From positions 1-22,917 of the IMG/VR virus record IMGVR_UViG_3300017719_000224: 22,917 nt of DNA, one strand, 5' to 3'. Every line of letters starts with the position of its first letter. Position 1 is the first letter of the stretch. The stretch is from a virus. Made by a program: the position numbers and the translations under genes. Under the pieces are notes generated by a model. It was given only the letters and a program-made list of their open reading frames with translations, did no database searches and had not been told where the DNA came from. This document shows, one piece after another, positions 5,746-19,718 of this stretch.

Positions 5746-5754
5746 GTTTTAATA

Positions 5755-6531
5755 TTAACTTCTATAAACGACTTTGTCAAGTGTTCCTGTGTTGCCAGAA
5801 TCTGGTGTGTGAACCAATCTTACAAACTGATAGTTTCCATAAAAGTTATGATAAACCAATCCAGTTTTTGCACTCACTGTATAGCTTTGACTTGGCACAT
5901 CAAAGTAATCAACTTCAGTTGGCTGTATGCTTAGTGTGGCTTGAAACTTGTACACACCTGTATAGTTTGTCATGTGTACCACCGCAGTTTGCAGTCCTTG
6001 CTTGTTTGAGTTTTGAGCAGGACCAGCCATTCTACTGCCAACCCTATCATCACCGTCTATATTAAATGTTGCAACTGTGCTACTGTCTGTTATATTGAGT
6101 AGACTTTGGTCTCTAACATCTACCACAAACGTAAGACGCATGTTGCGATCACTGGTACCGCCATAATTTCCAGCCTGGTCAGTGACGTTATAAGTAACTA
6201 TGAGATCGTGTAGTTTAGCATCCAATAGGAATGTTTCTTCGTGATCCAAATGGAGAACCAACTTACCTGCATCATAGTCGATGGGATTCATATTCTTTTG
6301 AAGAACTTGAGCACCATTTGCTCTATCAACAATAGTTGCAACATATGTTTTATTGTGTATGGCTTGTCTTTTATTGTCCGTGTCTTTTACAAAAAAGTCA
6401 ATGTCAATGTTAAGACCTCTATAAACAACCAAAGGCTTGTGATTGTCTGGGCCATAATATGTAGTGCCTCTGCGTTCTGGGATAAGAATCTCAGATCTTT
6501 GGTTATATTGATATATTGTTGCTTGATACAT
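5755..6531 (-). CDS. Probable virion structural protein (beta-rich)
   Basis: 258 aa from the ATG at 6531, which has GGAG 9 nt upstream; a GTG at 6546 would add only MENIH. The sequence is rich in alternating hydrophobic/polar strands (TYVATIVDRANGAQVLQ, LVLHLDHEETFLLD, LTFVVDVRD) with Tyr/Asn/Thr/Gly-rich turns and no enzyme motif, typical of phage tail, neck or fibre-associated proteins. AATAAATA at 6550-6557, 18 nt before the start, matches 7 of 8 positions of the T4 late promoter TATAAATA, and this supports a late, structural role. It separates the primosome genes from the plus-strand gene. Which virion part it forms is not decidable here. Confidence 0.75.
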   Translation of the reverse strand: MYQATIYQYNQRSEILIPERRGTTYYGPDNHKPLVVYRGLNIDIDFFVKDTDNKRQAIHNKTYVATIVDRANGAQVLQKNMNPIDYDAGKLVLHLDHEETFLLDAKLHDLIVTYNVTDQAGNYGGTSDRNMRLTFVVDVRDQSLLNITDSSTVATFNIDGDDRVGSRMAGPAQNSNKQGLQTAVVHMTNYTGVYKFQATLSIQPTEVDYFDVPSQSYTVSAKTGLVYHNFYGNYQFVRLVHTPDSGNTGTLDKVVYRS

Positions 6532-6549
6532 GTGTATATTCTCCACTAC

Positions 6550-6557
6550 TATTTATT
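6550..6557 (-). promoter_or_regulatory. T4-type late promoter candidate
   Basis: AATAAATA on the minus strand, one mismatch from the T4 late consensus TATAAATA recognised by gp55-RNA polymerase. It is placed to give a very short leader before the GGAG and the ATG at 6531 of a probable structural gene. Confidence 0.5.
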
Positions 6558-6573
6558 TGAATAAGTAATTACA

Positions 6574-6954
6574 ATGAACAACGTACCAAAGAAATATCAA
6601 GATTTGTTAGATAAATTTCCTTTTTTGACACTGGTCAAATACGGAGGTAACGAGTATGTGGGTATAATTCAAAACATGGATAACAATTTAGTTAGCATGT
6701 ACAATTATGAAAACATCAAAGAACTCGTAGACAGACAAGATTTTTTAGAACTTGGTGAAGAATGGTGGTGGGGAACTAATCGAATGATTCCCATCAACAT
6801 TATATTCAAACAAGCATTTGAAAAATATCGTGTGTGTCTAATTACCTTTAGTATTAAAGACTTTGAAATACTACACGGGCCTTGTATTAGTTTAAGCAAC
6901 ATAATGCAAAAACGTGTTAAACGAAGAAATATTCAACTTGTGCGCAAGATGTGA
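6574..6954 (+). CDS. Conserved hypothetical protein, only plus-strand gene in the window
   Basis: 126 aa. It begins MNNVPKKYQDLLDKFPFLT and ends in a basic segment (KRVKRRNIQLVRKM). The middle has VGIIQNMDNNLVSMYNYEN and a tryptophan run (EEWWWGTNRMIPINIIFK). It reads as a real small globular protein, with no membrane segment or known motif. TTGATA (6523-6528), an 18-nt spacer and TACTAT (6547-6552) could be its promoter; no good Shine-Dalgarno is seen. It diverges from the structural gene and converges on the oxygenase gene with a 22-nt 3' overlap, so the two messages are antisense at their ends. It appears more AT-rich than its neighbours. Similar proteins seem to exist in marine T4-like phages (memory), function unknown. 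Confidence 0.75.
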   Translation: MNNVPKKYQDLLDKFPFLTLVKYGGNEYVGIIQNMDNNLVSMYNYENIKELVDRQDFLELGEEWWWGTNRMIPINIIFKQAFEKYRVCLITFSIKDFEILHGPCISLSNIMQKRVKRRNIQLVRKM

Positions 6955-7694
6955 TTCTTTTGAGGATCAATTGTACGCAATCTTCTAGCAGTAGTTTTTT
7001 CAGCCGCATGCAATAGCAAACCTCTTCTAATGCTATCACTGTGATTAGGCATACTACTGTGCATGACTCGAGGATGCCAGCACACAAAACTTCCAGCCGG
7101 TGCTAGGTGTTGTTTGTAATTGTCCATAAAAAATAAATCAAAATGACTTTTATCTGCATACATGTTTTGATAATAGTCGTAGATGTACTTGTGTGTACCT
7201 GGCACATATCCAGTAGCACCATTGTCCGGAGTAAAGTCGCACAACATTACCATAAATTGCAAACCTAGTAAACCTTCTGTGTACTTAAACTCTTTGAATC
7301 TATAAGGTGTATCAATGTGTGGTCTAATAAAATTCATACCCGGGTATAGTGAAATAAAATCACACATATACCATTCCCAATTGTTTTCTCCAAATGCAGC
7401 ATCTGCACATTTACCTAGTTCAGGTTTAATAACGTTATCAATAAAATGATTGCCTTTGGGTTCATCTGTCCAAAAGTATGCCCAATCAATTTCTTTGTGT
7501 GGATCTTTACCTTCAGCTACTTGTTCCTGTATTTGGTTCCAACCATACCATTTTAAATCTCTGGTATGTCCTCTCTCAGGCGCAAATGTACTTGCATATT
7601 CATTGAGCTCTTGTATACAATCTTTATCAAACGTATCGCTGTGAACTGTAAATCCTATATCATTAATTTCTTTTACAAATCTATTTTCATCCAT
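6933..7694 (-). CDS. 2-oxoglutarate/Fe(II) oxygenase, phytanoyl-CoA dioxygenase-like
   Basis: 253 aa, the usual size of PhyH-family enzymes, which hydroxylate a substrate using Fe(II), O2 and 2-oxoglutarate. The iron triad is visible: H126-x-D128 in RPHIDTPYRF and the distal H212 in RVMHSSMPNHSDSIRRG. R223/R224 in the same segment would hold the 2-oxoglutarate carboxylate, and VPGTHKY matches the family's "PGSH" strand. Such genes recur in marine T4-like phages, with proposed substrates ranging from proteins to small metabolites; none can be named here. It follows the DnaE-like gene by 1 nt and converges with the plus-strand gene. Confidence 0.9.
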   Translation of the reverse strand: MDENRFVKEINDIGFTVHSDTFDKDCIQELNEYASTFAPERGHTRDLKWYGWNQIQEQVAEGKDPHKEIDWAYFWTDEPKGNHFIDNVIKPELGKCADAAFGENNWEWYMCDFISLYPGMNFIRPHIDTPYRFKEFKYTEGLLGLQFMVMLCDFTPDNGATGYVPGTHKYIYDYYQNMYADKSHFDLFFMDNYKQHLAPAGSFVCWHPRVMHSSMPNHSDSIRRGLLLHAAEKTTARRLRTIDPQKNHILRTS

Positions 7695-7695
7695 G

Positions 7696-8265
7696 TTAAT
7701 ATCCTAATTGTTCACATATGAGATTCATATGTACGATAACAACCATAGCATAACTTAGTGCGTGTGCTTTCTTAAAATAGTAAGCCTTGTTATCGTTTAC
7801 GGGTTTTACCCATACTTGATCCATTATTGTCTGCCAGCCTTTGTCTTGTAAATGTCGTTTGGCTGGTCTGATAATTGCCAGTGTAGCCGCCAATTGCTGT
7901 ACCGAAGTAGGCTTCAATTGTTTTAATAGACTGTCGTGCCCGCTTAGATGAAATAGCTGATCTACGAAGTCTTTGTGTTCCAGAAGTTCCCATACTGGTT
8001 CCTTTTCCATTAATTGCTTTAGATGATCGTCATCGTTTACGTCTTTGTATATGCTTAGATTAAGTAGATCCAATTTAAAGAATCCCATATCGTCAGCTTG
8101 TGTGTGTTCAACTGTACACACATTTGTAAATGGATTGCTGGGTACTCTATGAAAATAAACACCAGTATTGTGTTTTCTCTTCTTGAGCCTGGCTGGTACA
8201 TTTTTAAATAATTCTAGTGCTTGACTTCTATCTGCAAAGTCAATATCGATATCAGGTAATCCCAT
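7696..8265 (-). CDS. Miniature DnaE/PolC (C-family polymerase) palm-like protein
   Basis: 189 aa. Several segments align by eye with bacterial Pol III alpha: LPDIDIDFADR at 3-13 (alpha PDFDVDF, catalytic D401 and D403), HNTGVYFHRVPSNPFTNV...DDMGFFKLDLLNL at 32-70 (alpha H-GGVVIAP..PVTQF...GLVKFDFLGL, third catalytic Asp; D66 here), LFHLSGHDSLLKQLKPTS near 105-122 (alpha FQLESRGMKDLIKRLQP) with AATLAIIRP after it, and FKKAHALSYAMVVIVHMNL near the end (alpha FNKSHSAAYALVSYQT). PHP, most of the fingers, the beta-binding and OB domains are absent, so independent polymerase activity is doubtful. GGGAG precedes the ATG inside the upstream gene, with 14-nt overlap. I recall conserved cyanophage relatives of unknown function. 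Confidence 0.85.
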   Translation of the reverse strand: MGLPDIDIDFADRSQALELFKNVPARLKKRKHNTGVYFHRVPSNPFTNVCTVEHTQADDMGFFKLDLLNLSIYKDVNDDDHLKQLMEKEPVWELLEHKDFVDQLFHLSGHDSLLKQLKPTSVQQLAATLAIIRPAKRHLQDKGWQTIMDQVWVKPVNDNKAYYFKKAHALSYAMVVIVHMNLICEQLGY

Positions 8266-8959
8266 CTATCATCTCCCGTACAAAGTTTGCATCATGTGGA
8301 TTAAGTTTTGTTTTCTTTCCCCAATGATCTGCATCAATGCTGTTTGCTATTCTCGCAAAACATTCATCTGGCATATTGCTTAATGCTGTTTGCGCTCGTT
8401 TGCTGTTCAACATAATCCATGGCGAAATCTTACCCATTTCACACCATTCAGCTATCAAGTATCCACTAGCATTTTCCCAGAATGTTGCAAAGTAATCTGT
8501 TTCAGCGGCATGCTCTACAAAACGTTCTAGCGCACGTTCTACACTTTCACGTTTACAATGATCCTGTACAAACAACAAATACATTTTATCAGTGGGCCAA
8601 TCTTTGAGTTTGGCTTTGTTTTTAATTAACCAGCGAGTAAATGCTTCTTGATCTATACAGCGTATGTTTAAACAGTATGCACCAAACTTTACAAATGCTG
8701 TATAATACTGACTGTCAACAAAGTCCTTGTATTCCTTAGGCTTGCTTTGCATTTCAATTCTATAAAACAAATCATAACTAGCAAAGCCTACCAAGACATC
8801 TTGATTAAGTTTACTTTGCCAACGTCTTTTCTTTTCACAACTGTGAGCTAGTAATGTGCCTTCACGTTGAAAGCTCTTCTTGCAATAATCACATGTGAAT
8901 TTACCTTTTGTCAATCCTATACTTCCTACTGCATTTACTAGTTCTTCTGCTGTGGTCAT
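8252..8959 (-). CDS. Zinc-finger phage protein, N-terminal CCHC-type finger
   Basis: 235 aa. The N-terminal FTCDYCKKSF...LLAHSC has C23-x2-C26 and H39-x-C41, a compact C2H2/C2HC finger followed by a basic run (EKKRRWQSK) that could contact nucleic acid. The rest is alpha-helical with many aromatic residues (YYTAFVKFGAYC, ISPWIMLNSKRAQTALS) and a C-terminal DADHWGKK...FVREMI segment. From memory a protein of this architecture precedes the DnaE-like gene in marine T4-like phages, so the two may act together. ATGA overlap with the upstream gene and 14-nt overlap with the downstream gene imply coupled translation. Function unknown; nucleic-acid binding is inferred. Confidence 0.85.
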   Translation of the reverse strand: MTTAEELVNAVGSIGLTKGKFTCDYCKKSFQREGTLLAHSCEKKRRWQSKLNQDVLVGFASYDLFYRIEMQSKPKEYKDFVDSQYYTAFVKFGAYCLNIRCIDQEAFTRWLIKNKAKLKDWPTDKMYLLFVQDHCKRESVERALERFVEHAAETDYFATFWENASGYLIAEWCEMGKISPWIMLNSKRAQTALSNMPDECFARIANSIDADHWGKKTKLNPHDANFVREMIDGIT

Positions 8960-9426
8960 TTTTTAAACAGATCTTTTATTTGCTTTTTATCCATGCCCAG
9001 TTCTTCTGCTACTGCTTTAAAGTCGTTGATGTCATTTGTACTTACCAGAAGTTCTAGCTCATCGTCATTGTATGTTGGATAAAGTTCTTGCAACCATTTG
9101 AGAAGTTTGCCTGCTTTGCCTTTGCGCTGTTTACTGGGAGGTATCCAAGGATGAAATTGATTCATACCTAAGCCTACACACTGCAACAGTTTGAATTGTA
9201 GTTCAGGTTCTTTGCGCAATATATTATAATGCTTGTTCACTAGTTCATTTGTAAGTGCCAAATAATGATATTCAATATCTGGATTTTTAGTTTGCACTGC
9301 ACTGGTATAGCGCATTAGCACAAAGATACCAAGTTTCTTTTTTTCTTCTTCTGTTAAACTATCCCACCACGCTCTGTCACGCTGATCAATAGCTCGCATT
9401 TCTTCTTTGATACTAAGTTTGCTCAT
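8956..9426 (-). CDS. Conserved hypothetical protein of the uvsW operon
   Basis: 156 aa, soluble and helical. It begins MSKLSIKEEMRAIDQRDRAWWDSL; the middle is PELQFKLLQCVGLGMNQFHPWIPPSKQRKGKAGKLL; the C-terminus is a small helical domain (NDDELELLVSTNDINDFKAVAEELGMDKKQIKDLFKK). I considered T4 gp62 (clamp-loader small subunit) because of the general layout, but the match is too weak to name it. It abuts the upstream gene (TAAATG) and overlaps the zinc-finger gene by ATGA. Membership of the uvsW message suggests a DNA-metabolism role, which is inference. Confidence 0.8.
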   Translation of the reverse strand: MSKLSIKEEMRAIDQRDRAWWDSLTEEEKKKLGIFVLMRYTSAVQTKNPDIEYHYLALTNELVNKHYNILRKEPELQFKLLQCVGLGMNQFHPWIPPSKQRKGKAGKLLKWLQELYPTYNDDELELLVSTNDINDFKAVAEELGMDKKQIKDLFKK

Positions 9427-9636
9427 TTACCATAATCCAAGTGTTCTTCCGTTACCAACTATTATAAAGCCACATGTACAAATATGCAAGACAATCCAGA
9501 AGGTTCTGAACCATAATGCTTTGTGAACATCATGTTGTGTAATTGGCAAAAACTCTGGCTTGTCCTCATCATTTACGCCAACTGGCATGCCAACTGTTCT
9601 ACTCCATAGTTTTAACCAACGACGTTGTCCACTCAT
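9427..9636 (-). CDS. Small single-pass membrane protein
   Basis: 69 aa from the ATG at 9636, which overlaps the stop of the preceding small gene as ATGA; this coupling decides the start over ATGs further upstream. A basic amphipathic N-terminus (MSGQRRWLKLWSRTVG) is followed by a polar linker and a membrane helix (ALWFRTFWIVLHICTCGFIIVG) close to the C-terminus. It sits beside another small membrane peptide, so the two might form a pair in the host membrane. No known family is assigned. Confidence 0.8.
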   Translation of the reverse strand: MSGQRRWLKLWSRTVGMPVGVNDEDKPEFLPITQHDVHKALWFRTFWIVLHICTCGFIIVGNGRTLGLW

Positions 9637-9797
9637 CCAAATACTGTCCATAAAATTAAAAGTATAATAGCCCAACCAAAAATACCTAATCCATTGTTAC
9701 CTACGTGTCCTTTTGCTTTTGCGCAATCATAACAGTACCTGTATTTGGCAGGAACACGTTTATTACAAAAGAAAGCATCGCAAGTTTTTTTACTCAT
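9633..9797 (-). CDS. 54-aa zinc-ribbon plus membrane-helix peptide
   Basis: A small gene found by reading the gap. It runs from ATG 9797 to TGA 9633. The N-terminal half has C6-x4-C11 and C22-x2-C25 (RYCYDC), a likely one-zinc ribbon; the C-terminal half is a hydrophobic helix (GIFGWAIILLILWTVFG). Both junctions support it: the upstream stop overlaps its ATG (TAATG) and its stop overlaps the next start (ATGA). Without this gene there would be a 160-nt hole in an otherwise gap-free operon. Function unknown. Confidence 0.85.
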   Translation of the reverse strand: MSKKTCDAFFCNKRVPAKYRYCYDCAKAKGHVGNNGLGIFGWAIILLILWTVFG

Positions 9798-10300
9798 TAC
9801 CACAAATCCTCTGTGCTTAGTACATCTGGTATTTTATTTGTATCTTTTACAAAGTACGCACAAGGACTGTTGTCGCTTTCTCCTAAAGGAACAGCAAGTA
9901 TATGTCCAAACTTTAGTTTAGGAAAATACCATTTAACTTCTTGATAGATGTTTATAATTTCTATTTCATCAAAGCTGGGTAAAAATCCTGTAAGTGGATT
10001 AAAAACAAAGGCTTTAAATCCTCTGTCATTGAGGCTGGTTACTGGCAATACTTCCGGATCGCCTACCATTGGATCACACACTACAAGACTCCAATCTAAT
10101 GGAACCTTTACATGCCGTTTACCTATTTGCAGTACAGCCGCAGGTGCATTAAAACTTTCTAAAAATACCAATGGAACAAATACATAATCTGCTTCCTTTG
10201 GATTACTGTAGTCTAATACACAATAGCGTATGTCTTCAATCTCTTCTGGAATAAAATCTAAATCATATACTTGATTCTCTACTGTTAATATTCTAGTCAT
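9797..10300 (-). CDS. Conserved hypothetical protein directly after uvsW
   Basis: 167 aa, beta-rich, acidic overall. It begins MTRILTVENQVYDLDFIPEE and contains DYVFVPLVFLESFNAPAAVLQIG, KVPLDWSLVVCDP and KWYFPKLKFGHILAVPLG, ending in YFVKDTNKIPDV. No catalytic motif or membrane segment is evident. Its ATG overlaps the uvsW stop (ATGA), and its stop overlaps the next small gene (TAATG). I have an impression that close relatives follow uvsW in marine T4-like phages, but no function is known to me. Confidence 0.82.
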   Translation of the reverse strand: MTRILTVENQVYDLDFIPEEIEDIRYCVLDYSNPKEADYVFVPLVFLESFNAPAAVLQIGKRHVKVPLDWSLVVCDPMVGDPEVLPVTSLNDRGFKAFVFNPLTGFLPSFDEIEIINIYQEVKWYFPKLKFGHILAVPLGESDNSPCAYFVKDTNKIPDVLSTEDLW

Positions 10301-11751
10301 TTATAATCCACTTTCTCTATATGAAAGGGGTACTTGGCTTCTCGATAAAATTTCTTTCGCTCAGTCAAATGCCTCTTGCTAAATTTTGCACTGCTTGTTA
10401 TATCCCATATCTGTACATGATCTTTGTCTTGTGCTTTACGTATACCTCTACCAATACTTTGTATTACCCTAACGAAACTTTTGCCAGGCTCCACGAGAAC
10501 CAAGTTAAAAATACGAGGAATGTTAATACCCACGGCAGCCACACCATAGGTTGCAACGATAATTTTGTTGTCAACTTCACTAATTTCATCATATTGATCT
10601 TTCCTATTTTTGCTTTTCATTGAACCACTGACAAACACTGTATCATCGCCAAGTCGTTCTACTAGTCCTTCTCCTGCACTAATACGATCTACCAGCACCA
10701 ATGTATTACCACTTTGCGCCATTGTTTGTATTAGTCCACTCATGTAATCTAGTCTGTTCTTATCTGTTGTAAGATAAGTTAATTCACTTTGGTAGTTGCC
10801 ATAACTCACTGTGTCTTGTAGCTGTAGTACGTTTACTTCGCATTGTGCTAGCACACCCATGTCTTGTAGTTCGTGTGCGCTCAAACTATTGGTTACTTCT
10901 CCCAAGCTCACTTCCAAGCTCAAGCGTTCATGTTCTGCTTTAGGTATCGTGCCTGTAAGCCCCCAGCGAATTGGAATATTGCTGAACGCTCCAGTAAGCA
11001 GTTTTTTCAGGACGTCTGCTTTGGCTTGATGAACTTCGTCCACCATAACACACACGACACCTTCTGCAAAATGGTGCAACCCTTCGTCCGCTAGTCCGTC
11101 ACGGAATCTTTTTTCGAGAACGTTCAAACTCTGCCAAGTACATATGGTATGAGTTCTCCCTAATTCTTTTCTATCACCGAAGTAAACACCTACATCTAGT
11201 CCCAAATTAATATAGTCAGCTTCTGTTTGAGTGACCAAATCTTTGTTTGGAACAATAACAATACTGCGACCATAGGCTTCACACATATAGCTTAGTGCCG
11301 CAGTAATCAATGTTTTACCAGCACCTGTTGCAATTTCTTGCAAACACTGCGGTGTCTTTAAAAACTTATTGATAACTTCAACTTGATAATCTCTGAGTAC
11401 AACTGGCTCACCTGCAGCCGGATGCTTGTCGGGCCATTGTCTATCACTGAACAGTTGTTCTGTTACAGTGTCCCATTTGAGATCATGTGGTTGTCTGTGA
11501 TCCTCTATCTCAATACCGTAGCCTTCTTCGTCCAGTATGGGAAGTATAGTGGGCAAGCAGTTTACAAAGGTGCTACCACCCATAGTAAAGTAACCCACAC
11601 AGCCATCCCAACGTCCAAGTTTATATGCTGGTACGTGATATGCATGCGGCAAAAAGAACTTTAGTTTCTTTTCTAGCTTGCGTCGAGTGGTTAATCCAAG
11701 TCCTTCGAACTTGCAATTAACCTCATCTTTGAGGATAAGTTTTGTTTTCAT
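10297..11751 (-). CDS. uvsW: UvsW RNA/DNA and DNA/DNA helicase
   Basis: 484 aa (T4 UvsW about 500). This SF2 helicase unwinds branched DNA and R-loops, rewinds forks, and helps the switch from origin- to recombination-dependent replication. An N-terminal UvsW-specific domain (AYKLGRWDG near 43-50, as in T4) is followed by Walker A ATGAGKT at 141-147, motif Ia VIVPNKDLVTQ, DEVH at 238-241, motif III GLTGT at 264-268, and C-terminal motifs (VDRISAGEGLV, VATYGVAAVGINIP, QSIGRGIRKA). The start agrees with the T4 N-terminus. A sigma70-like promoter lies so close that the mRNA would begin at the A of the ATG; no Shine-Dalgarno is present. Confidence 0.95.
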   Translation of the reverse strand: MKTKLILKDEVNCKFEGLGLTTRRKLEKKLKFFLPHAYHVPAYKLGRWDGCVGYFTMGGSTFVNCLPTILPILDEEGYGIEIEDHRQPHDLKWDTVTEQLFSDRQWPDKHPAAGEPVVLRDYQVEVINKFLKTPQCLQEIATGAGKTLITAALSYMCEAYGRSIVIVPNKDLVTQTEADYINLGLDVGVYFGDRKELGRTHTICTWQSLNVLEKRFRDGLADEGLHHFAEGVVCVMVDEVHQAKADVLKKLLTGAFSNIPIRWGLTGTIPKAEHERLSLEVSLGEVTNSLSAHELQDMGVLAQCEVNVLQLQDTVSYGNYQSELTYLTTDKNRLDYMSGLIQTMAQSGNTLVLVDRISAGEGLVERLGDDTVFVSGSMKSKNRKDQYDEISEVDNKIIVATYGVAAVGINIPRIFNLVLVEPGKSFVRVIQSIGRGIRKAQDKDHVQIWDITSSAKFSKRHLTERKKFYREAKYPFHIEKVDYK

Positions 11752-11757
11752 GTTTTA

Positions 11758-11786
11758 ATAATACGCTCTAATTTAGAGTTTGTCAA
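11758..11786 (-). promoter_or_regulatory. Sigma70-type promoter of uvsW with palindromic spacer
   Basis: TTGACA (11781-11786), an exact 17-nt spacer and TATTAT (11758-11763). The spacer contains the dyad CTCTAAATTAGAG (11766-11778). The -10 is followed by TAAAAC and then ATG, so a start site 7 nt downstream of the -10 would be the first base of the start codon. Confidence 0.8.
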
Positions 11787-11965
11787 CGGCTAGCTTTTGC
11801 TTGCAAGTCATTACAACGATTTTCCATAACTTGCATTTGCATTTTTAATTTACTAACTTCTTCTTTTAATTGTTTGATAATTTCATCACGAGCTCTAAGT
11901 TCCTCTAGCCCTCGGTAACCATATTCGGTATAAGTATCTTTGACCATTTTGTTCCACCAACCCAT
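11783..11965 (-). CDS. Small coiled-coil protein
   Basis: 60 aa. After a short N-terminus (MGWWNKMVKDTYTEYG) almost the whole protein is a heptad-like amphipathic helix (LEELRARDEIIKQLKEEVSKLKMQMQVMENRCNDLQ), a probable dimeric or trimeric coiled coil. AGGA lies 7 nt upstream of the ATG. It is the first gene after the three-hairpin segment, and its stop lies just upstream of the -35 of the uvsW promoter. Function unknown; an adaptor or a regulator would be plausible. Confidence 0.75.
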   Translation of the reverse strand: MGWWNKMVKDTYTEYGYRGLEELRARDEIIKQLKEEVSKLKMQMQVMENRCNDLQAKASR

Positions 11966-11984
11966 TCGATTTTCCTGTACTACT

Positions 11985-12122
11985 ACTTATAAAATAAGGG
12001 GACTAGTAAGACTTCTTACTAGCCCCCCGGGACCTAACTGGTGTGAGTGAGAGTGACGCAGACAGAGGAGTACACCAGTTAGTATTGGTAGCCATTGCTA
12101 TTGCAACTGTCTGGCTACCAAA
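11985..12122 (-). ncRNA. Three-hairpin noncoding segment ending in a terminator-like stem
   Basis: Three inverted repeats lie in tandem after the AAA+ gene. (1) TTGGTAGCCA/TGGCTACCAA (12085-12094 and 12112-12121, 10 bp) encloses a second TTGC/GCAA stem. (2) CTAACTGGTGT/ACACCAGTTAG (12034-12044 and 12072-12082, 11 bp) has a 27-nt loop. (3) CTAGTAAG/CTTACTAG (12003-12010 and 12015-12022) is extended by four G:C pairs past one mismatch; on the minus strand TTATTTTAT follows it. Hairpin 3 looks like an intrinsic terminator. Hairpins 1 and 2 are more structure than a terminator needs, so a small RNA or a 3'-UTR processing element is suggested. No coding frame fits. Confidence 0.55.
11998..12027 (-). 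terminator. Probable intrinsic terminator after the AAA+ ATPase gene
   Basis: An 8-bp stem with loop AAGT on the minus strand is extended by GGGG/CCCC beyond a single mismatch, and a U-rich run (UUAUUUUAU) follows. The loop region overlaps AAGANNTCTT, the palindrome also found in promoter spacers elsewhere in this window. Confidence 0.6.
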
Positions 12123-12127
12123 TTCTT

Positions 12128-13147
12128 TTATATCCTTTTCATACAAGTGGACTCTGCATAACTCTTCCACTTGTTGGCATTCATTTTACGAAGATCAGCA
12201 ATCTTCAACACCATACGCAAGCTCATTTCACGCAAGCGATTCTTATTGGTGTAGATATATTCCATAAGATCTTTTTGTTCATGTTCACTAAACTTGTAAC
12301 TGTTTAACATACCATCAGCAACGATTTGTTTACAACGCAAGAACTTGTCACGCATTGTGTCTAGTGTCAAGTCCAAGTAGTGACAACGACTCATAATAGC
12401 ATCTAGGTGATCTTTTAGTTTACCACGTGTTCGTTCAAACTTTACATTGGTAATAAAAATGATCGAACCTTTAAACTCAAAGCTGTCTGGCACACCATTG
12501 TTAGCAAGCGCACGACTTTCACTGCGCCAGCTTAGTGTTCGCTTTGGGCTACTATCCAATGCCGCTTTGAGCAAGTTCAAGCTGAGTTCATCATACAGCA
12601 CACTATCACAGTCATCTAATACTAGTACACTACCGTCTCCACTGTAATCATACAGCAATTGATAAAGACCAATTGGAGTAGCGGCACCTTTTTCAACACC
12701 AAACTTACGGTTGCTGTTTTGAGACATTTTTAACATAATGCCTGCATCCTTGAGCACCTTCTCAACTCCAAAACTTTTACCAACACCCGGAGGTCCAGTA
12801 ACTACCATGCCACGCACAACCCCATCACATGACGCATATGTCATGTCTTCTAGGATTTGAAATCGCTCCCGTAACCGTTCAATGACTTGATCATCTGTTT
12901 CAGCTTGGGCGGCTTGGGCTGACACAACATTCTCTCCGTCTTCGAGGTAGTCGAATTCACTTTGATCGACTACTTTGATCCGAATGGATCGGTCCGGGAA
13001 ACCAGGCACTGCACTACCATCAACTGTAATGAAGCTACCTGTTTTGCCTTGTTTAAATTCTTTAACTAATGGAAACACTACGTCCTTCACATTAATGTTA
13101 CGGTATGTACCGTTTGCGATACGCACTTGCTTTTCTGTTGTCTGCAT
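12128..13147 (-). CDS. AAA+ ATPase
   Basis: 339 aa. N-terminal about 100 residues of unknown fold (RNINVKDVVFPLVKEF...), then an AAA+ module: Walker A GPPGVGKS at 118-125, Walker B LVLDDCDS at 175-182, sensor-1-like FITN in GSIIFITNVKF, and a C-terminal helical lid (DLMEYIYTNKNRLREMSLRMVLKIADLR) with a possible sensor-2 arginine. This architecture fits a remodelling ATPase; the substrate is unknown. Similar AAA proteins are, from memory, common in marine T4-like phages. It has its own promoter (TTGACA at 13204-13209), a leader of about 28 nt and AAGGAG before the ATG. It is followed by three hairpins, so it may be a single-gene unit. Confidence 0.9.
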   Translation of the reverse strand: MQTTEKQVRIANGTYRNINVKDVVFPLVKEFKQGKTGSFITVDGSAVPGFPDRSIRIKVVDQSEFDYLEDGENVVSAQAAQAETDDQVIERLRERFQILEDMTYASCDGVVRGMVVTGPPGVGKSFGVEKVLKDAGIMLKMSQNSNRKFGVEKGAATPIGLYQLLYDYSGDGSVLVLDDCDSVLYDELSLNLLKAALDSSPKRTLSWRSESRALANNGVPDSFEFKGSIIFITNVKFERTRGKLKDHLDAIMSRCHYLDLTLDTMRDKFLRCKQIVADGMLNSYKFSEHEQKDLMEYIYTNKNRLREMSLRMVLKIADLRKMNANKWKSYAESTCMKRI

Positions 13148-13181
13148 TGGTTCTCACTCCTTTTTAACAACTTATATAAAC

Positions 13182-13209
13182 ATATTAACATCTATGTATC
13201 TAATGTCAA
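13182..13209 (-). promoter_or_regulatory. Sigma70-type promoter of the AAA+ gene
   Basis: TTGACA (13204-13209), a 16-nt spacer and TAATAT (13182-13187); reading AATATG with 17 nt is an alternative. The -35 contains the TGA stop of the preceding 234-aa gene. The spacer AGATA...GATGTTA resembles that of the promoter at 13942-13969. Confidence 0.65.
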
Positions 13210-13910
13210 CCTTTTATTTCATTTATTTTTACATAATTAAACACAGTTTCTTTGCAGTTACTGAATTTACTAACGTCATGTGTTTTTACTTTACCAGTAA
13301 GTATAACATCTTTGCCTTCTAAAATACCAGCAATATCAGGTTCACGATTAAAGAAGAATTTACAGATGTTGCCTTTGGTATCCAAACAGGTCACCAAATG
13401 AATCGAATATTTTGCAATAAACTTTACATCTTTGATGTTTACTTGAAACATAAGACGTTCGCCAGCAGTACCAATAAATTCACTAGTTTTACGATATTGA
13501 TCAAAGAAATCATCCAATCCTTGACGCTTGCTCAACACACGAAAACTATTTGGCAAACTTGCTAGAATTGCAACGCCAAATCCATCAACTGCTTCATCAC
13601 TGAGGCAACGCAATACATTACCTTCAAAGTCATTTATATTGCCCATCATCTTTTTGGCAATCAGTTCATGTTTAAATTCGTCTACAATCTTATCTGCTTG
13701 TTCAACACAGTCTTCTGTAATTGTGAATTCTTCAGCGCCTTCTATACTCTGCATAAAGTTGAGAATACAAGTCTTGTTATCGTAAACACGCTTTTCATTT
13801 TCTCTGTCGTAATATCCAAACCCACTTTTGATAAAGCCTTGTTTGGCATCAACTGCAATAGCAAGTTCAAGTACTTGACGAGTATTATACTGTTGTTTTT
13901 GACGAGCCAT
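13206..13910 (-). CDS. Conserved hypothetical protein, possible OB-like C-terminal domain
   Basis: 234 aa. A basic N-terminus (MARQKQQYNTRQVLELA) leads into a mixed helical part. The C-terminal third alternates strands: FIAKYSIHLVTCLDTKGNICKFFFNRE and GKDVILTGKVKTHDVSKFSN...VFNYVKINEI. The "LxGKVKxH...F..C..T.LNYVK" pattern is reminiscent of OB-fold modules found in phage replication-associated proteins, but this is only a by-eye impression. GAGGAT precedes the ATG, and a promoter lies at 13942-13969. Its stop codon lies in the -35 box of the next promoter. Function unknown. Confidence 0.82.
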   Translation of the reverse strand: MARQKQQYNTRQVLELAIAVDAKQGFIKSGFGYYDRENEKRVYDNKTCILNFMQSIEGAEEFTITEDCVEQADKIVDEFKHELIAKKMMGNINDFEGNVLRCLSDEAVDGFGVAILASLPNSFRVLSKRQGLDDFFDQYRKTSEFIGTAGERLMFQVNIKDVKFIAKYSIHLVTCLDTKGNICKFFFNREPDIAGILEGKDVILTGKVKTHDVSKFSNCKETVFNYVKINEIKG

Positions 13911-13941
13911 CTTCTTATCCTCTGTTCTGTTTTACTAGTTT

Positions 13942-13969
13942 ATAATAACATCAAGATATCTTATGTCAA
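13942..13969 (-). promoter_or_regulatory. Sigma70-type promoter with AAGATATCTT spacer palindrome
   Basis: TTGACA (13964-13969), a 16-nt spacer and TATTAT (13942-13947); ATTATA with 17 nt is also readable. The perfect palindrome AAGATATCTT (13953-13962) starts 1 nt after the -35. The -35 embeds the TGA stop of the small membrane-protein gene. It drives the 234-aa gene starting at 13910. Confidence 0.7.
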
Positions 13970-14148
13970 CCTAATATAAACAATAATAATAAAAAACCTG
14001 CAATAAATGTGAAAATAATTCTGCATATAAAACCCAGTATATTGCCTAGCAATCTAAAAATACTAAATTTTTTACGGGGAGGATTAGTGTAATAGATATC
14101 ATTTATCAGATCATCTTCAGCCTGTTGTATTGTGATATCGTCTTTCAT
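13966..14148 (-). CDS. Small membrane protein after tRNA-Ser
   Basis: 60 aa from ATG 14148, preceded by GAGGA at good spacing; the longer frame from 14193 would run into the tRNA-Ser gene and is rejected. The acidic N-terminus (MKDDITIQQAEDDLINDIYY) is followed by a basic PPRKK and a long hydrophobic helix (LLGNILGFICRIIFTFIAGFLLLLFILG) to the C-terminus, giving an N-in tail-anchored topology. It lies 18 nt downstream of tRNA-Ser and is probably on the same transcript. Function unknown. Confidence 0.8.
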   Translation of the reverse strand: MKDDITIQQAEDDLINDIYYTNPPRKKFSIFRLLGNILGFICRIIFTFIAGFLLLLFILG

Positions 14149-14165
14149 AGTGTCCTCAATATAAG

Positions 14166-14254
14166 TGGCGGAGGATGTGGGAGTCGAACCCACTCAACGC
14201 TGTTAGCGTTGTACGGATTAGCAATCCGCTGCATTACCGTCCTGCCCATCCTCC
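14166..14254 (-). tRNA. tRNA-Ser (GCT)
   Basis: Acceptor GGAGGAT/ATCCTCC, anticodon loop TTGCTAA (GCT), a long variable arm (ACGCTAACAGCGT) as expected for serine, and a T arm with GGTTCGACTCC. Discriminator G and an encoded CCA (14166-14168). It reads AGC/AGU codons. Confidence 0.95.
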
Positions 14255-14270
14255 TTACTTATAATGTACA

Positions 14271-14504
14271 CTATTTACTGAATAAGTCAAGTTGTTTTGT
14301 GTAATTTTTAACAGTTTCTACAGTCATTACTCGTGTGATCCAATTCTCTGCGGCATCAGTGACATAGTGACGACTTTTATTAGGATATTCAATTCGACCT
14401 ACAATTTGGTTGTCTTCAAAAAAACTACACATCAAGTATTCGTCATCCACAAAACTAATGATTGCTTCTCGATTGTCTTTTTGAAATTTATTGTAATAGT
14501 CCAT
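14271..14504 (-). CDS. Hypothetical 77-aa protein inside the tRNA island
   Basis: 77 aa, beginning MDYYNKFQKDNREAIISFVDD. It has charged and aromatic residues (DEYLMCSFFEDNQIVGRIEYPNKSRHYVTDAAENW), no membrane helix and no known motif. AAGGA lies 7 nt before the ATG. It is placed between tRNA-Gln upstream and tRNA-Ser downstream, so its mRNA is probably released by tRNA processing on both sides. Function unknown. Confidence 0.75.
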   Translation of the reverse strand: MDYYNKFQKDNREAIISFVDDEYLMCSFFEDNQIVGRIEYPNKSRHYVTDAAENWITRVMTVETVKNYTKQLDLFSK

Positions 14505-14528
14505 TAATGTTTCCTTTTGTATCTTACT

Positions 14529-14603
14529 TGGCTGGAACGATAGGACTCGAACCTATACTCTGCGCTACCAAAAAGCGATGCATTACCATTATGCTACGTT
14601 CCA
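14529..14603 (-). tRNA. tRNA-Gln (TTG)
   Basis: Acceptor TGGAACG/CGTTCCA with the U1-A72 pair usual for glutamine, anticodon loop TTTTGGT (TTG), T loop GGTTCGAGTCC, discriminator G, encoded CCA at 14529-14531. It sits 3 nt from tRNA-Leu. The anticodon stem has one outer mismatch (T27-C43). Confidence 0.93.
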
Positions 14604-14606
14604 TTA

Positions 14607-14690
14607 TGGTGCCCTGGGAGAGACTCGAACTCTCACGCCGTAAAGCACAGGTACCTAAAACCTGCGTGTCTACCATTTCACCACCAGGGC
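14607..14690 (-). tRNA. tRNA-Leu (TAG)
   Basis: Acceptor GCCCTGG/CCAGGGC, anticodon loop TTTTAGG (TAG), a long variable arm (class II) as expected for leucine, T arm GAGTTCGAGTC, discriminator A and an encoded CCA at 14607-14609. It decodes CUN codons. Confidence 0.95.
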
Positions 14691-14694
14691 TAAG

Positions 14695-14770
14695 TGGTGC
14701 TCCCACACGGACTCGAACCGCGGACCTATTGATTACAAATCAATTGCTCTACCAGCTGAGCTATAGGAGC
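14695..14770 (-). tRNA. tRNA-Thr (TGT)
   Basis: Acceptor GCTCCTA/TGGGAGC, D arm AGCTCAGCTGGTAGAGC, anticodon loop TTTGTAA (TGT), T arm GCGGTTCGAGTCCGT, discriminator A and an encoded CCA at 14695-14697. It is four bases upstream of tRNA-Leu(TAG), giving a three-tRNA run with Gln. Confidence 0.95.
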
Positions 14771-14777
14771 GTTTTTA

Positions 14778-14984
14778 TTATGAGAAATGTTTGTTTAACA
14801 TTTCAATGCGATCTTCTGATGCAGCCATTTTATCCAGTTCTTCTTGGATTGCTTCTACAATATCACTGTGTTCGCCAATACCAACACTTTGATTCATATA
14901 AACTAAAATATTTGTTTTAGCACGTTCTAGCTCGCCTTCAGCATGCATACGTGCGGCTTTAACTAATTGAGCACTCATACTCAT
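14778..14984 (-). CDS. Conserved small helical phage protein
   Basis: 68 aa, mostly helix: MSMSAQLVKAARMHAEGELERAK, then NILVYMNQSVGIGEH, then a second helix (SDIVEAIQEELDKMAASEDRIEMLNKHF). Proteins with the same layout and a "NxVGIGEH" turn are, from memory, widespread in marine T4-like phages, with no known function. The ATG overlaps the stop of the 44-aa gene upstream (ATGA), with GGAATG before it. It is a short helical-hairpin protein, so a binding or adaptor role is possible. tRNA-Thr follows 7 nt downstream. Confidence 0.85.
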   Translation of the reverse strand: MSMSAQLVKAARMHAEGELERAKTNILVYMNQSVGIGEHSDIVEAIQEELDKMAASEDRIEMLNKHFS

Positions 14985-15115
14985 TTTACATTCCTTTCAT
15001 TATATTTTATCATAATTGTCCATTCTGGGTGTTTGTTAACAAGTTCATTTGCTTCTAACAAACTATCATAGGTATCTATGATACTTCCAGTTTTAAGATT
15101 CATTACATAATACAT
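14981..15115 (-). CDS. 44-aa peptide gene
   Basis: A small gene found by reading the gap: ATG 15115 to TGA 14981, peptide MYYVMNLKTGSIIDTYDSLL followed by EANELVNKHPEWTIMIKYNERNVK. Its start overlaps the upstream stop (TAATG) and its stop overlaps the downstream start (ATGA), strong signs of a real gene in a coupled series. A strand (YYVMNLKTGSIID), a helix and a second strand (WTIMIKY) suggest a tiny beta-alpha-beta fold. No relative is recognised. Confidence 0.8.
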   Translation of the reverse strand: MYYVMNLKTGSIIDTYDSLLEANELVNKHPEWTIMIKYNERNVK

Positions 15116-15555
15116 TATTCGTGTTCGCCGCCGTAACCACGTGAATTGATTCCGTTGTCTCTACGGAACGCATTTGGATTACGTTTGGCTGTTTCAAATG
15201 TTGCTACTGTTACTGCAATAGCTCCTAGCAATAGTGTGTGTAGCATCATACTAAACACTCCTGCCCACATGCTACCTACAATGATAGCAAATACAATACA
15301 CCACATCCATGCCAATACTTGCATGATCATATGTCGTGTGCTGAAGTCCGGAATGTTGCTTAGTGGATTTCGTTTATGGTCCATTACTACATTCCAGCAA
15401 TTAAATACCCATTCTCTCATATCTTTTCCTTTTTCAAATGTTACCTTTAAGGGATAATGTGCGTCAACAGTATCTCGATAATCAATTGCATCGTATAGAT
15501 CATAGAACTTACGAACTATTTTCTTATCTTTGAAATATGCTGTTACTTTGTACAT
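15115..15555 (-). CDS. Two-helix membrane protein ending in GGEHE
   Basis: 146 aa. A soluble N-terminal half (MYKVTAYFKDKKIVRKFYDL...VTFEKGKDMREWVFN) is followed by two membrane helices, about 82-100 (QVLAWMWCIVFAIIVGSMWAG) and 104-121 (MMLHTLLLGAIAVTVATFE), and a C-terminal polar tail RRDNGINSRGYGGEHE. I have the impression that this tail is conserved in marine T4-like phages. A CATAAATA octamer (15581-15588) 25 nt upstream matches T4-type late promoters and overlaps the end of the preceding tRNA. The stop overlaps the 44-aa gene. Function unknown. Confidence 0.82.
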   Translation of the reverse strand: MYKVTAYFKDKKIVRKFYDLYDAIDYRDTVDAHYPLKVTFEKGKDMREWVFNCWNVVMDHKRNPLSNIPDFSTRHMIMQVLAWMWCIVFAIIVGSMWAGVFSMMLHTLLLGAIAVTVATFETAKRNPNAFRRDNGINSRGYGGEHE

Positions 15556-15586
15556 TTTACTTATTCGTTTATTGTTTCATTATTTA

Positions 15587-15662
15587 TGGTGCGCCCGGTA
15601 GGATTCGAACCTACAGTCGACCCGTTATGAGCGGGGGGCTTTAACCGTTAAGCTACAGGCGC
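15587..15662 (-). tRNA. tRNA with CAT anticodon (Met, or Ile2)
   Basis: Acceptor GCGCCTG/CGGGCGC, D arm AGCTTAACGGTTAAAGC, anticodon loop CTCATAA (CAT), T arm GTAGGTTCGAATCCTAC, discriminator A, encoded CCA at 15587-15589. The first acceptor pair is a normal G-C and there is no clear three-G:C initiator signature, so it is not initiator-like. Elongator Met and lysidine-modified Ile (AUA) cannot be told apart by eye. Confidence 0.93.
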
Positions 15663-15667
15663 TGTTT

Positions 15668-15751
15668 TGGTACTCGCACCCGGACTCGAACCGGGACGCC
15701 ATATGGCCACAGATTTTAAGTCTGTTATGTCTACCATTCCATCATGCGAGC
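15668..15751 (-). tRNA. tRNA-Leu (TAA)
   Basis: Acceptor GCTCGCA/TGCGAGT (a G-U first pair), anticodon loop CTTAAAA (TAA), long variable arm (GGCCATATGGC), T arm CCGGTTCGAGTCCGG, discriminator A, encoded CCA at 15668-15670. It decodes UUA/UUG. Five bases separate it from the CAT tRNA. Confidence 0.94.
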
Positions 15752-15756
15752 GTTAT

Positions 15757-15833
15757 TGGCCTGCCCTAGAGGATTCGAACCTCTGACCTAGTGCTTAGAA
15801 GGCACTTGCTCTATCCAGCTGAGCTAAGGGCAG
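15757..15833 (-). tRNA. tRNA-Arg (TCT)
   Basis: Acceptor CTGCCCT/AGGGCAG, D arm AGCTCAGCTGGATAGAGC, anticodon loop CTTCTAA (TCT), T arm AGAGGTTCGAATCCTCT, discriminator G, encoded CCA at 15757-15759. It decodes AGA/AGG, which are favoured in AT-rich genomes. Confidence 0.95.
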
Positions 15834-15846
15834 TTTAAATCCTTTC

Positions 15847-16215
15847 TTACGCTACTAGTTCGTAAGGCTTGTTCCATTGACCAACATTGATGTCAGTGTA
15901 GTGACTGCGACTGAAGTAATCAGACATTGCGTCATCGTCGTTAAAATACTTAGGACCTTTCATAGCCGCTAACAGCTCATTTAGAAAGTCACGCTTGACG
16001 CCATCATAGTGGCTATCAATCCAGTATTCGTTAACTTGACAGTATCCATCACCGTGTGTAAAACTATCGCTAAAATCAAGAGCGCCTGCTTTAATATTCA
16101 CAGCAAGTGTTGAATGATTACGAACAGCAATACTAGCTTTCATTTTGTATTTTTTTAATACATCTTTAATTGCTGGTGCTAGTTCTTTTTTCATCTTTTG
16201 GGATACATATGCCAT
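15847..16215 (-). CDS. Conserved hypothetical protein (LPD29-like)
   Basis: 122 aa. MAYVSQKMKKELAPAIKDVLKKY, ASIAVRNHSTLAVNIKAGALDF, QVNEYWIDSHY and YFNDDDAMSDYFSRSHYTDINVGQWNKPY form a pattern I associate with the large polyvalent protein-associated domain LPD29, found free-standing in many phages; the family name is from memory. Likely alpha/beta fold, function unknown. It has its own strong promoter (16253-16281) with a spacer palindrome. In the leader the AGGA Shine-Dalgarno is the loop of a CGAAG/CTTCG hairpin (16219-16232), so both transcription and translation may be controlled. tRNA-Arg lies 13 nt downstream. Confidence 0.85.
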   Translation of the reverse strand: MAYVSQKMKKELAPAIKDVLKKYKMKASIAVRNHSTLAVNIKAGALDFSDSFTHGDGYCQVNEYWIDSHYDGVKRDFLNELLAAMKGPKYFNDDDAMSDYFSRSHYTDINVGQWNKPYELVA

Positions 16216-16218
16216 TTT

Positions 16219-16232
16219 CGAAGTCCTCTTCG
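16219..16232 (-). promoter_or_regulatory. Ribosome-binding site presented in a hairpin loop
   Basis: The minus strand reads CGAAG-AGGA-CTTCG directly before AAAATG. A 5-bp stem holds the AGGA of the Shine-Dalgarno in a four-base loop, 3 nt plus the start codon downstream. Such structures can slow or tune initiation; the effect here is inferred. Confidence 0.45.
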
Positions 16233-16252
16233 TTTGTTTAACTTACAATAAT

Positions 16253-16281
16253 AATATAGCAGTAAGACGTCTTGTTGTCAA
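16253..16281 (-). promoter_or_regulatory. Sigma70-type promoter with AAGACGTCTT spacer palindrome
   Basis: TTGACA (16276-16281), an exact 17-nt spacer and TATATT (16253-16258). The palindrome AAGACGTCTT (16264-16273) lies in the middle of the spacer, where a bound protein would block or re-shape polymerase binding. It drives the 122-aa gene. Confidence 0.82.
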
Positions 16282-16283
16282 GA

Positions 16284-16301
16284 AAAAAAGACGTCTTTTT
16301 T
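16284..16301. repeat. 18-bp A/T-flanked palindrome, possible second operator or terminator
   Basis: A perfect palindrome of six A, GACGTC and six T. It contains a second AAGACGTCTT whose centre is 24 bp from the one in the promoter spacer. It lies between the stop of the 84-aa gene and the -35 of the next promoter. The T-run could also make it a weak bidirectional terminator. Confidence 0.6.
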
Positions 16302-16310
16302 AATCTTTTT

Positions 16311-16565
16311 TTACCATTCTTTGAATGTACCTGCATCTTCGTTATCACGATAGCCAGCAGTATAAGCAGTGATTTGCTCGGGTGTCATATCTTTCATTTC
16401 GATACGAGTACCTTTTTGTGTACCTTCGGGCCAATAGTGAGGATCAAAGCTTCGTCCATAATAACTATCAGCACCGCCCCTATCATAGGGTCCACCATGT
16501 ACTTCATCATATAGTGGCAATTTAGTTGAAAGTTTTGCTTCAACATCTACAGGTAAAGACGACAT
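16311..16565 (-). CDS. Conserved hypothetical 84-aa protein
   Basis: 84 aa with a striking centre: GGPYDRGGADSYYGRSFDPHYWP, then a Thr/Glu-rich segment and YTAGYRDNEDAGTFKEW at the end. From memory, small phage proteins with "DRGSADSYYGR..PHYWP" are widespread, also beyond T4-likes, and unassigned. It is the last gene of a three-gene unit; its ATG overlaps the upstream stop (TAATG). An 18-bp palindrome follows its stop. Probably an early host-interaction protein, by position only. Confidence 0.8.
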   Translation of the reverse strand: MSSLPVDVEAKLSTKLPLYDEVHGGPYDRGGADSYYGRSFDPHYWPEGTQKGTRIEMKDMTPEQITAYTAGYRDNEDAGTFKEW

Positions 16566-16876
16566 TACGCAGCCTCCTTTTCTCTACAAATATTTTCGAT
16601 ATGCCGTTCAATAGCACTATCGCTCCAATTAGCAAAGTCTAAGGAACGTGCATAACCTTTACTGACATAATCAGCAGTAATATAGTACGCATCTTCTTCT
16701 AGTTGAATACGGTTATATTCTTTAAGAGTACCCGAAGGAACACGATCACTCCAATACTCAGTTTCAGTTGCCGCAGGCATCATGCCCATCCAACAACCAG
16801 GTTGCTTTGAAAACTCTTCAGCTTCCTTGCGTTGAGCGTTGATATAGTCAACTAGTGCAGTTTCCATATTATACAT
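16565..16876 (-). CDS. Conserved hypothetical 103-aa protein
   Basis: 103 aa, starting MYNMETALVDYINAQ. The start is fixed by the TAATG overlap with the upstream gene. The middle is rich in Tyr, Trp and acidic residues (ATETEYWSDRVPSGTLKEYNRIQLEEDAYYITADYV), and the C-terminus is helical (SAIERHIENICREKEAA). No catalytic or membrane motif is seen. It is the second gene of a coupled three-gene unit read from the promoter at 17159-17187. Function unknown. Confidence 0.8.
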   Translation of the reverse strand: MYNMETALVDYINAQRKEAEEFSKQPGCWMGMMPAATETEYWSDRVPSGTLKEYNRIQLEEDAYYITADYVSKGYARSLDFANWSDSAIERHIENICREKEAA

Positions 16877-17124
16877 TATGCTACCTCTCCAAACAGTTTT
16901 CCCATATTTTCGAACACTACATTATAAGCATTCACTTCAGCTTCATACCACTCATAAAAGTCTTCATCATCTTCAAAGCGTTCACTACCACTGGCATGTT
17001 CATCCCATACACGTTGCATAGCATTCATACCTTCAAGTGCATCACCACGACCAAAGTTTGTGATTGTGTTCCAAGCACTAGTAAAATCTACTGTGTTTTG
17101 ATAAAAACTAGGGATTCTAAACAT
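16876..17124 (-). CDS. Conserved hypothetical 82-aa acidic protein
   Basis: 82 aa, acidic. It begins MFRIPSFYQNTVDFTSAWNT and contains MNAMQRVWDEHASGSERFEDDEDFYEWYEAEVNAYN. The likely fold is a few helices without membrane segments. It is the first gene of the three-gene unit, with its own promoter about 35 nt upstream and AAGGA before the ATG. Such short acidic proteins near strong early promoters are typical of phage takeover genes, but no target is known here. Confidence 0.78.
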   Translation of the reverse strand: MFRIPSFYQNTVDFTSAWNTITNFGRGDALEGMNAMQRVWDEHASGSERFEDDEDFYEWYEAEVNAYNVVFENMGKLFGEVA

Positions 17125-17158
17125 CGTGTATTCCTTCTTTGTTTCTAACTATACATAT

Positions 17159-17187
17159 AATATAGCACCAAGAAGTCTTACTGTCAA
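17159..17187 (-). promoter_or_regulatory. Sigma70-type promoter with AAGACTTCTT spacer element
   Basis: TTGACA (17182-17187), an exact 17-nt spacer and TATATT (17159-17164). The spacer holds AAGACTTCTT on the minus strand (17170-17179). The spacer end TGC and -10 TATATTAT are identical to those of the promoter at 16253-16281, suggesting one promoter family. It drives the 82/103/84-aa gene unit. Confidence 0.82.
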
Positions 17188-17195
17188 GTCTTTTT

Positions 17196-17837
17196 TTAAA
17201 TTATTTGTGTTTTTTCGTGTCCTACACGTATTTGTGGATCTACATATATGTCTATGTCCAGTTGTTTTGCATCCAAACACCAAGCAACATCTTCACTACA
17301 CATTTCATATCCCTGTGGCACTTGTAACTTTTTAGGTGCAAACCACGGATATTCCATACGTTCAAATACACCTTGCTTAACCAACACCCAACCAAATCCA
17401 ATATAATCTGCTTTAAAAGCAAACTTACGTTCTAACATTTCTTCTTCTTTTATGAATTGATAATGTCCGTGTTTGTTAAAATACTCGTCATCTAAGTTTT
17501 CTACAACTGGTGTAAATCCTTGAGGTTGACTATACCATCCACTAGCAACATCACAATCCATGCTTAGTAGTTTAGTAAAATGTTCTACTGTGAATACTTG
17601 ATCGCTGTCGATCCACATCATATAATCATATTCTATACCATTGAATGGCTTTTGATACATACCTTTAGATACATCTGCACCTGCTACTTTACAACGAGCA
17701 AAATTTACCATACTACTGTGTTGTTGACTTAGTATGGGTTGGTGTCCATTTTGTAAGCACCAAGTCCATACACCTGTAAATGATTGTAAAAATATACCAC
17801 TATAGCTATTACCCGGTAAACAAAATACTATTCTCAT
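17196..17837 (-). CDS. GT-A-fold glycosyltransferase-like protein
   Basis: 213 aa. N-terminal strand-loop MRIVFCLPGNSYSG, then DYMMWIDSDQVF with D77-x-D79, the DxD motif that holds Mn2+ and the nucleotide-sugar, then a variable acceptor region and MCSEDVAWCLDAK, the family's C-terminal acidic (ED) catalytic element, and VDPQIRVGHEK. This fits a GT2-like enzyme moving a sugar to an unknown acceptor, possibly phage DNA, tail protein or host glycan. It overlaps uvsY by ATGA and closes the gp32-uvsX-uvsY operon; similar genes in this place exist in marine T4-like phages, from memory. Confidence 0.85.
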   Translation of the reverse strand: MRIVFCLPGNSYSGIFLQSFTGVWTWCLQNGHQPILSQQHSSMVNFARCKVAGADVSKGMYQKPFNGIEYDYMMWIDSDQVFTVEHFTKLLSMDCDVASGWYSQPQGFTPVVENLDDEYFNKHGHYQFIKEEEMLERKFAFKADYIGFGWVLVKQGVFERMEYPWFAPKKLQVPQGYEMCSEDVAWCLDAKQLDIDIYVDPQIRVGHEKTQII

Positions 17838-18289
17838 AAACTCACGTCCTCTAATCCTGCAGCTCTTAGTTTTACAATGTTATTAATCTGAAACTGTTTG
17901 GCATCAATAGCTTTAATTAATCCCATAAACTTATTACGAATCAATGCTACTTCATTAATAATATGCTGTTGGTCAATAACTTCACTTTCGCTGTCAGCAT
18001 ACTTTTCAGCATCTCGACTACTAAGTGCTTTGTTATATCCTTCTAGATATTTTCTATAATGTTTGTTGCGTATTTTGCGCATCTCAATATTAAGATGTTC
18101 AAGTATAGCTTCTAGTTCCTGTAATTGATTAAAACGATACTCAACTATTCCAGGCATGTCACGTGAGTGTTTTTCTACATTACCTTTGAGTCCACAATCT
18201 AATCTTGCTTCATCTAGTTGCTGTTCGAAGTAATCAATCGCAGGAACAATATTAGCTATATTTTTCTTTACTTTACTATACCAGCTCAT
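17834..18289 (-). CDS. uvsY: Recombination mediator UvsY
   Basis: 151 aa (T4 UvsY 137). UvsY loads UvsX on gp32-coated single-stranded DNA. The central helical region (PGIVEYRFNQLQELEAILEHLNIEMRKIRNKHYRKYL, then SSRDAEKYADSE) and the C-terminal helix QFQINNIVKLRAAGLEDVSL match what I remember of the marine T4-like UvsY; the end parallels T4 FAIKHIQDMRA. Mostly coiled/helical, consistent with the known oligomeric protein. It directly follows the 85-aa gene (TAAATG), two genes after uvsX, so the recombination genes are co-transcribed. Confidence rests on pattern, not alignment. Confidence 0.88.
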   Translation of the reverse strand: MSWYSKVKKNIANIVPAIDYFEQQLDEARLDCGLKGNVEKHSRDMPGIVEYRFNQLQELEAILEHLNIEMRKIRNKHYRKYLEGYNKALSSRDAEKYADSESEVIDQQHIINEVALIRNKFMGLIKAIDAKQFQINNIVKLRAAGLEDVSL

Positions 18290-19658: not shown

Positions 19659-19679
19659 TAATTTCTCCAAGAATATAAT

Positions 19680-19701: not shown

Positions 19702-19718
19702 TGTGTTAGATGTTTTGA

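Follow-up and report, generated by a model that had tools for sequence, protein, structure and literature searches.

In the icaR mRNA of Staphylococcus aureus, a UCCCCUG motif in the 3'UTR base-pairs with that mRNA's own Shine-Dalgarno region (PMC3868564). In Vibrio cholerae, the 3'UTRs that give rise to OppZ and CarZ are released as small RNAs (sRNAs) that repress their own transcripts, and blocking the release of OppZ abolished control, which excluded simple long-distance pairing in that system (PMC7398697). According to a review, the phage sRNAs PreS, VpdS, OOP, sar and sas have other mRNAs, of the host or of a phage, as their targets, and a term search of that review for autoregulation or "own mRNA" found no mention (PMC12197685). 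The literature searched yielded no phage gene that is controlled by pairing of its own 3' end with its ribosome-binding site.

We analyzed a virus contig of 22,917 bases (its whole length is called the window), in which the 3'UTR of an ATPase gene can be compared with these systems. As in icaR, a motif in the 3'UTR complements the mRNA's own Shine-Dalgarno region, and a block of initiation is predicted. The locus differs from icaR in that it belongs to a phage, that the anti-Shine-Dalgarno sequence forms a long invariant loop on a covarying stem beside the terminator, and that the start codon would also be covered. As with OppZ and CarZ, the transcript finishes with an RNA that ends in a terminator and complements a translation start of that transcript; OppZ, in contrast, depends on Hfq and on release by RNase E, and its target is an operon's second cistron, whereas the ATPase unit appears monocistronic. 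With PreS, VpdS, OOP, sar and sas, as the review describes them, it would share the control of an mRNA by a phage RNA through base pairing (PMC12197685).

Position and strand of the three hairpins

All family-matched, gene-sized ORFs of the window are on the minus strand, and there is no plus-strand gene at the element. The element occupies the gap at 11966-12127, between a gene for a PHROG_1250 AAA+ ATPase of 339 aa (12128-13147, minus strand) and a 60-aa ORF (11783-11965), beyond which lies a helicase gene. On the minus strand, the ATPase stop codon is followed by hairpin C (12085-12121), hairpin B (12034-12082) and hairpin A (11988-12028), which is an intrinsic terminator, and this order makes the element the 3'UTR of the ATPase mRNA. 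Three consecutive hairpins had been proposed at this place from the sequence, and they are present at 11997-12121, where the sequence folds far better than its shuffled versions (z of -4.0 for the plus strand and -4.6 for the minus strand). The coordinates had been given correctly, but the strand and the order of the hairpins had been misread: the original prediction took the last hairpin on the plus strand as the terminator, but the tail of 12085-12121 is weak on that strand, and the actual terminator is the hairpin it had counted first, read on the minus strand. In the covariation alignment described below, the minus strand contains 14 G-U pair cells and one A-C, which identifies it as the RNA strand; together with the direction of the genes and the strand of the terminator, this ruled out a plus-strand RNA.

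Hairpin A has a 14-pair stem, a 4-nt loop and a U-rich TATTTTATAA tail, reading GGGGGGCUAGUAAGAAGUCUUACUAGUCCCC and then UUAUUUUAU (12028-11988), and was the top terminator match in the part of the window that was scanned (5000-22917). A TATAAGTA box on the same strand 3' of the terminator (11984-11991), kept in most clades, looks like a T4-type late promoter and is a putative one; the leaders of the long contigs are also enriched in ATAAATA. Close relatives carry different small genes after the terminator (11783-11965 in the window, and the corresponding position of L010, L015, L017 and L039), so that the site looks like a variable insertion site, and in distant clades the helicase gene follows the terminator directly. 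The window also contains seven tRNA genes on the minus strand (Ser, Gln, Leu, Thr, Met, Leu and Arg, at 14166-14770 and 15587-15833).

The ATPase gene is preceded by a match to a sigma-70-type promoter (13182-13209, minus strand; TTGACA, 16 nt, TAATAT), a pattern that rests on consensus matching and is followed by a short leader. Near the 3' end of the gene, a consensus scan of 13 loci found no consistent -10 or late-promoter match, and third codon positions there showed no unusual conservation. An sRNA with its own promoter inside or after the ATPase gene was rejected because no promoter was consistent across the 13 loci. With a promoter match and a short leader in front of the gene, a strong terminator behind it and no consistent promoter match towards its end, the simplest reading is that the element forms the 3'UTR of a single mRNA.

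Covariation of hairpin B around a nearly invariant loop

Hairpin B has an 11-bp stem (12082-12072 paired with 12044-12034) and a loop of about 27 nt, ACUCCUCUGUCUGCGUCACUCUCACUC on the RNA strand (12045-12071, minus), which is nearly invariant, open, and largely unpaired in predicted folds. That the loop of the second hairpin would be unpaired and available had been correctly foreseen, and it is the key feature of the locus.

A search of IMG/VR with the ATPase protein yielded 80 loci, of which 79 had enough downstream sequence. This set was chosen by the protein and not by the loop, and hairpin B followed by the terminator was kept in all 79 relatives with readable flanks. A scan for the two conserved blocks of the loop returned 111 contigs, about 107 of them at the ATPase 3'UTR locus. 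The blocks CTCCTCTG and CACTCTCAC are common to the 66 distinct elements, a set in which the pattern scan fixes them by construction; the sequence between them is variable, mostly TCTGCGT.

The stem of hairpin B is entirely different in sequence between clades and yet retains its pairing. In the 14 distinct stems 98.7% of the stem cells were paired, versus 23-56% when the partner strand was slid, and both sides had changed in 9 of the 11 pairs. The covariation score was 0.850, as against 0.366 for shuffled alignments, and none of 500 shuffles reached it; RNAalifold, unaided, predicted the same 11 pairs. The original prediction had staked itself on compensatory changes in the stems, and it survived this check, since such changes were found. 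Its suggestion of a structured 3'UTR or 3'-derived small RNA was right as to the kind of element, an ATPase 3'UTR with a covarying main stem and an open loop; it had the strand and the terminator hairpin wrong and named no target. In one contig (L045:2300-2400) stem halves from two clades are joined at the invariant loop, probably as an assembly chimera or at a point of recombination.

At the locus no Rfam 15 covariance model scored near its gathering threshold, and the window as a whole yielded only tRNAs. The element was not seen 3' of the homologous gene in five isolate phage records, nor did DNA similarity reveal it in isolates. It is a real and conserved phage 3'UTR element that is absent from Rfam 15. 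The stem of hairpin A also differs between clades, and hairpin C is confined to the close clade. Hairpin A is by itself a standard terminator, and hairpins B and C might merely stabilize the 3' end of the mRNA in an ordinary terminator region; this fails to account for a near-invariant open loop of 27 nt on a rewritten stem in every relative, and we regard it, already disfavored, as extremely unlikely.

Complementarity of the loop to the ATPase translation start

The window and ten long contigs of relatives were scanned for duplexes with the loop without a preselected target, and the scan pointed to the translation start of the ATPase gene itself. The predicted duplex of the window is colinear and has two blocks, in which AAGGAGUGAGAACCAAUGCAGACA faces UGUCUGCGU and CUCACUC of the loop. 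The 3' half of the loop complements the leader block GGAGUGAGA in the Shine-Dalgarno region (13152-13160, minus strand), where CUCACUC faces the Shine-Dalgarno block GGAGUGAG, and the start codon region AUGCAGACA (13139-13147, minus strand) is complementary to UGUCUGCGU. The GGAGUGAGA-AUG arrangement is retained in nearly all relatives, and the exceptions carry GGAGUGAC, GGGUGACA or GUGAGAG, which are also complementary; the leader of L139, with weak complementarity, is the sole exception without a good alternative block.

When the gene starts of each long contig were ranked by duplex energy with the loop, the start of the ATPase gene itself ranked 1/35, 1/46, 1/49, 1/96, 1/105, 3/120 and 4/104, and in the remaining contigs 2/86, 7/175, 9/86 and 14/142, that is, first or in about the top tenth overall, with the reservation that these ranks and counts are not independent because the clades and loci share ancestry. 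Some contigs contain other leaders with stronger predicted loop duplexes than the own start. Three or more clades shared 96 ortholog groups, and among those found in all six clades compared the ATPase start was the best, with a geometric mean percentile of 0.038, the next group having 0.124. A loop complement of 8 nt or longer occurs in 2.8% of other leaders, versus most ATPase leaders. A general leader consensus was rejected as the source of the complementarity, since GAGTGAG is rare in other leaders (4 of 1021).

When the whole mRNA of the window (1,192 nt) was folded, leader and loop came to lie against each other. Across loci, the minimum-free-energy fold of the complete ATPase mRNA contained the leader-loop pairing at 17 of 24, as against 20 of 288 folds with shuffled loops; in 7 of the 24 mRNAs, including those of L060, L084, L131, L081, L077 and L150, this fold lacked it. 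Independently, hairpin C has a match of 7-8 nt to this leader block in 12 of the 22 distinct relatives from the close clade, the window not being among them. These observations bear on another explanation, in which the loop is the site of a host or phage RNA-binding protein that affects stability or localization of the mRNA, and its match to the leader arose by coincidence. A long loop that stays invariant while its stem changes freely does look like a sequence-specific protein site. Such a site does not predict that the leader pairs with the loop more often than with shuffled versions, nor the same complement in hairpin C, and we hold it to be very unlikely.

We consider it fairly probable, given these predicted duplexes, that translation of the ATPase is repressed autogenously by pairing of the 3'UTR with the 5'UTR, either in cis or by a released sRNA. 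The element would then be a conserved 3'UTR that regulates an early phage mRNA with a single cistron. Hairpin B displays its loop in the open and hairpin A ends transcription; the 3' half of the loop would bind the Shine-Dalgarno block and its middle the start codon region. Repression is to be expected where both are covered, and such a duplex over the ribosome-binding site and start codon would lower ATPase translation in proportion to the ATPase's own mRNA. Acting in cis, the pairing would bring together the two ends of a single mRNA; in trans, the tail would be freed as a small RNA before it pairs. When loops were swapped between clades, own loops paired with their leaders no better than foreign ones did; the data thus support a conserved complementarity and lend no support to co-evolution between loop and leader.

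Possible partners of the loop outside the ATPase mRNA

Towards its 5' side the loop has an invariant CUCCUC that takes no part in the predicted duplex of the window, so that self-pairing leaves part of the loop conservation unexplained. This excess of conservation is what would be expected if the processed tail or the 3'UTR acted in trans and its anti-Shine-Dalgarno loop repressed several phage or host mRNAs, that of the ATPase among them, and a hairpin followed by a terminator is a layout that fits a 3'UTR-derived sRNA. Other leaders also match strongly; in two clades, for example, a minus-strand gene starting MQQNEYDVVLLKCVDGDTVDVDIDL (MQQNEYDVVLLKCVDGDTVDVDIDL / MMQNNEYDVVVIKVVDGDTVDVDID; contigs G007:C1 and G011:C1) has the leader GUGAGAGGA with strong predicted loop pairing and is a candidate second target. 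Against several targets, no ortholog group besides the ATPase was a consistent target over all clades. A scan of GTDB for the two-block motif on either strand gave 18 matches, the phage locus itself aside, versus about 24 expected by our estimate, and this near-chance number argues against an exact host target; rRNA or an exact host sequence as target was rejected on the same scan. A full target elsewhere in the same phages was found in none of 28 contigs at the tested spacing, and ten long contigs contained partial matches only. Taken together, we judge a loop with several targets to be unlikely. One GTDB genome, a Gammaproteobacteria MAG (MED685), contains the phage locus itself (L275), which is possibly a hint of the host or else a mis-binned phage contig.

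A long complement of the loop lies in a second family of phages. The contigs L098 (361-385), L143 (3794-3818) and L156 (3860-3884) carry on the plus strand GUGUGAGUGAGAGUGACC(G/A)CAGACAGAGGAG, which complements the loop over 31 nt apart from one additional base, directly before a small Lys-rich ORF upstream of the terminase. These contigs are podovirus-like, with a terminase about 46-47% identical to those of Pelagibacter phages, and the carrier of the loop would be a marine phage with the putative T4-late-promoter-like box. The loop might therefore silence a competing phage through the leader complement, or the competitor might carry a decoy that titrates the loop RNA. Predicted duplexes of -60.6 and -61.0 kcal/mol, versus -26.5 for the own ATPase start, are in line with such a contest, as are the boundary of the shared block, which coincides with the exact end of the complement, and the metagenome 3300023178, which yielded one complement-bearing and one loop-bearing contig. 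The complement is nevertheless restricted to three contigs of one family, and close relatives lack the full block (L345, L346 and L354 keep only GTGTGAGTGAGAGTGACC). Its first 15 nt can also be read as codons for VSESD, in a frame that continues into the Lys-rich ORF in L098 and L143. Because a target could mutate away, a contest by itself cannot hold the loop constant, and we give this explanation a slim chance.

Returning to autogenous repression, a stem that is free in sequence and a loop that is fixed make the pairing directly testable with compensatory mutants. If the proposal is true, uncultured phages of a widespread marine and estuarine group all carry a structured RNA absent from Rfam 15, which would provide a phage case of self-control in which a gene's 3' end pairs with the ribosome-binding site of that gene. 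The complement of 31 nt found in a second family, which is podovirus-like, would make RNA-level interference between phages a concrete question.
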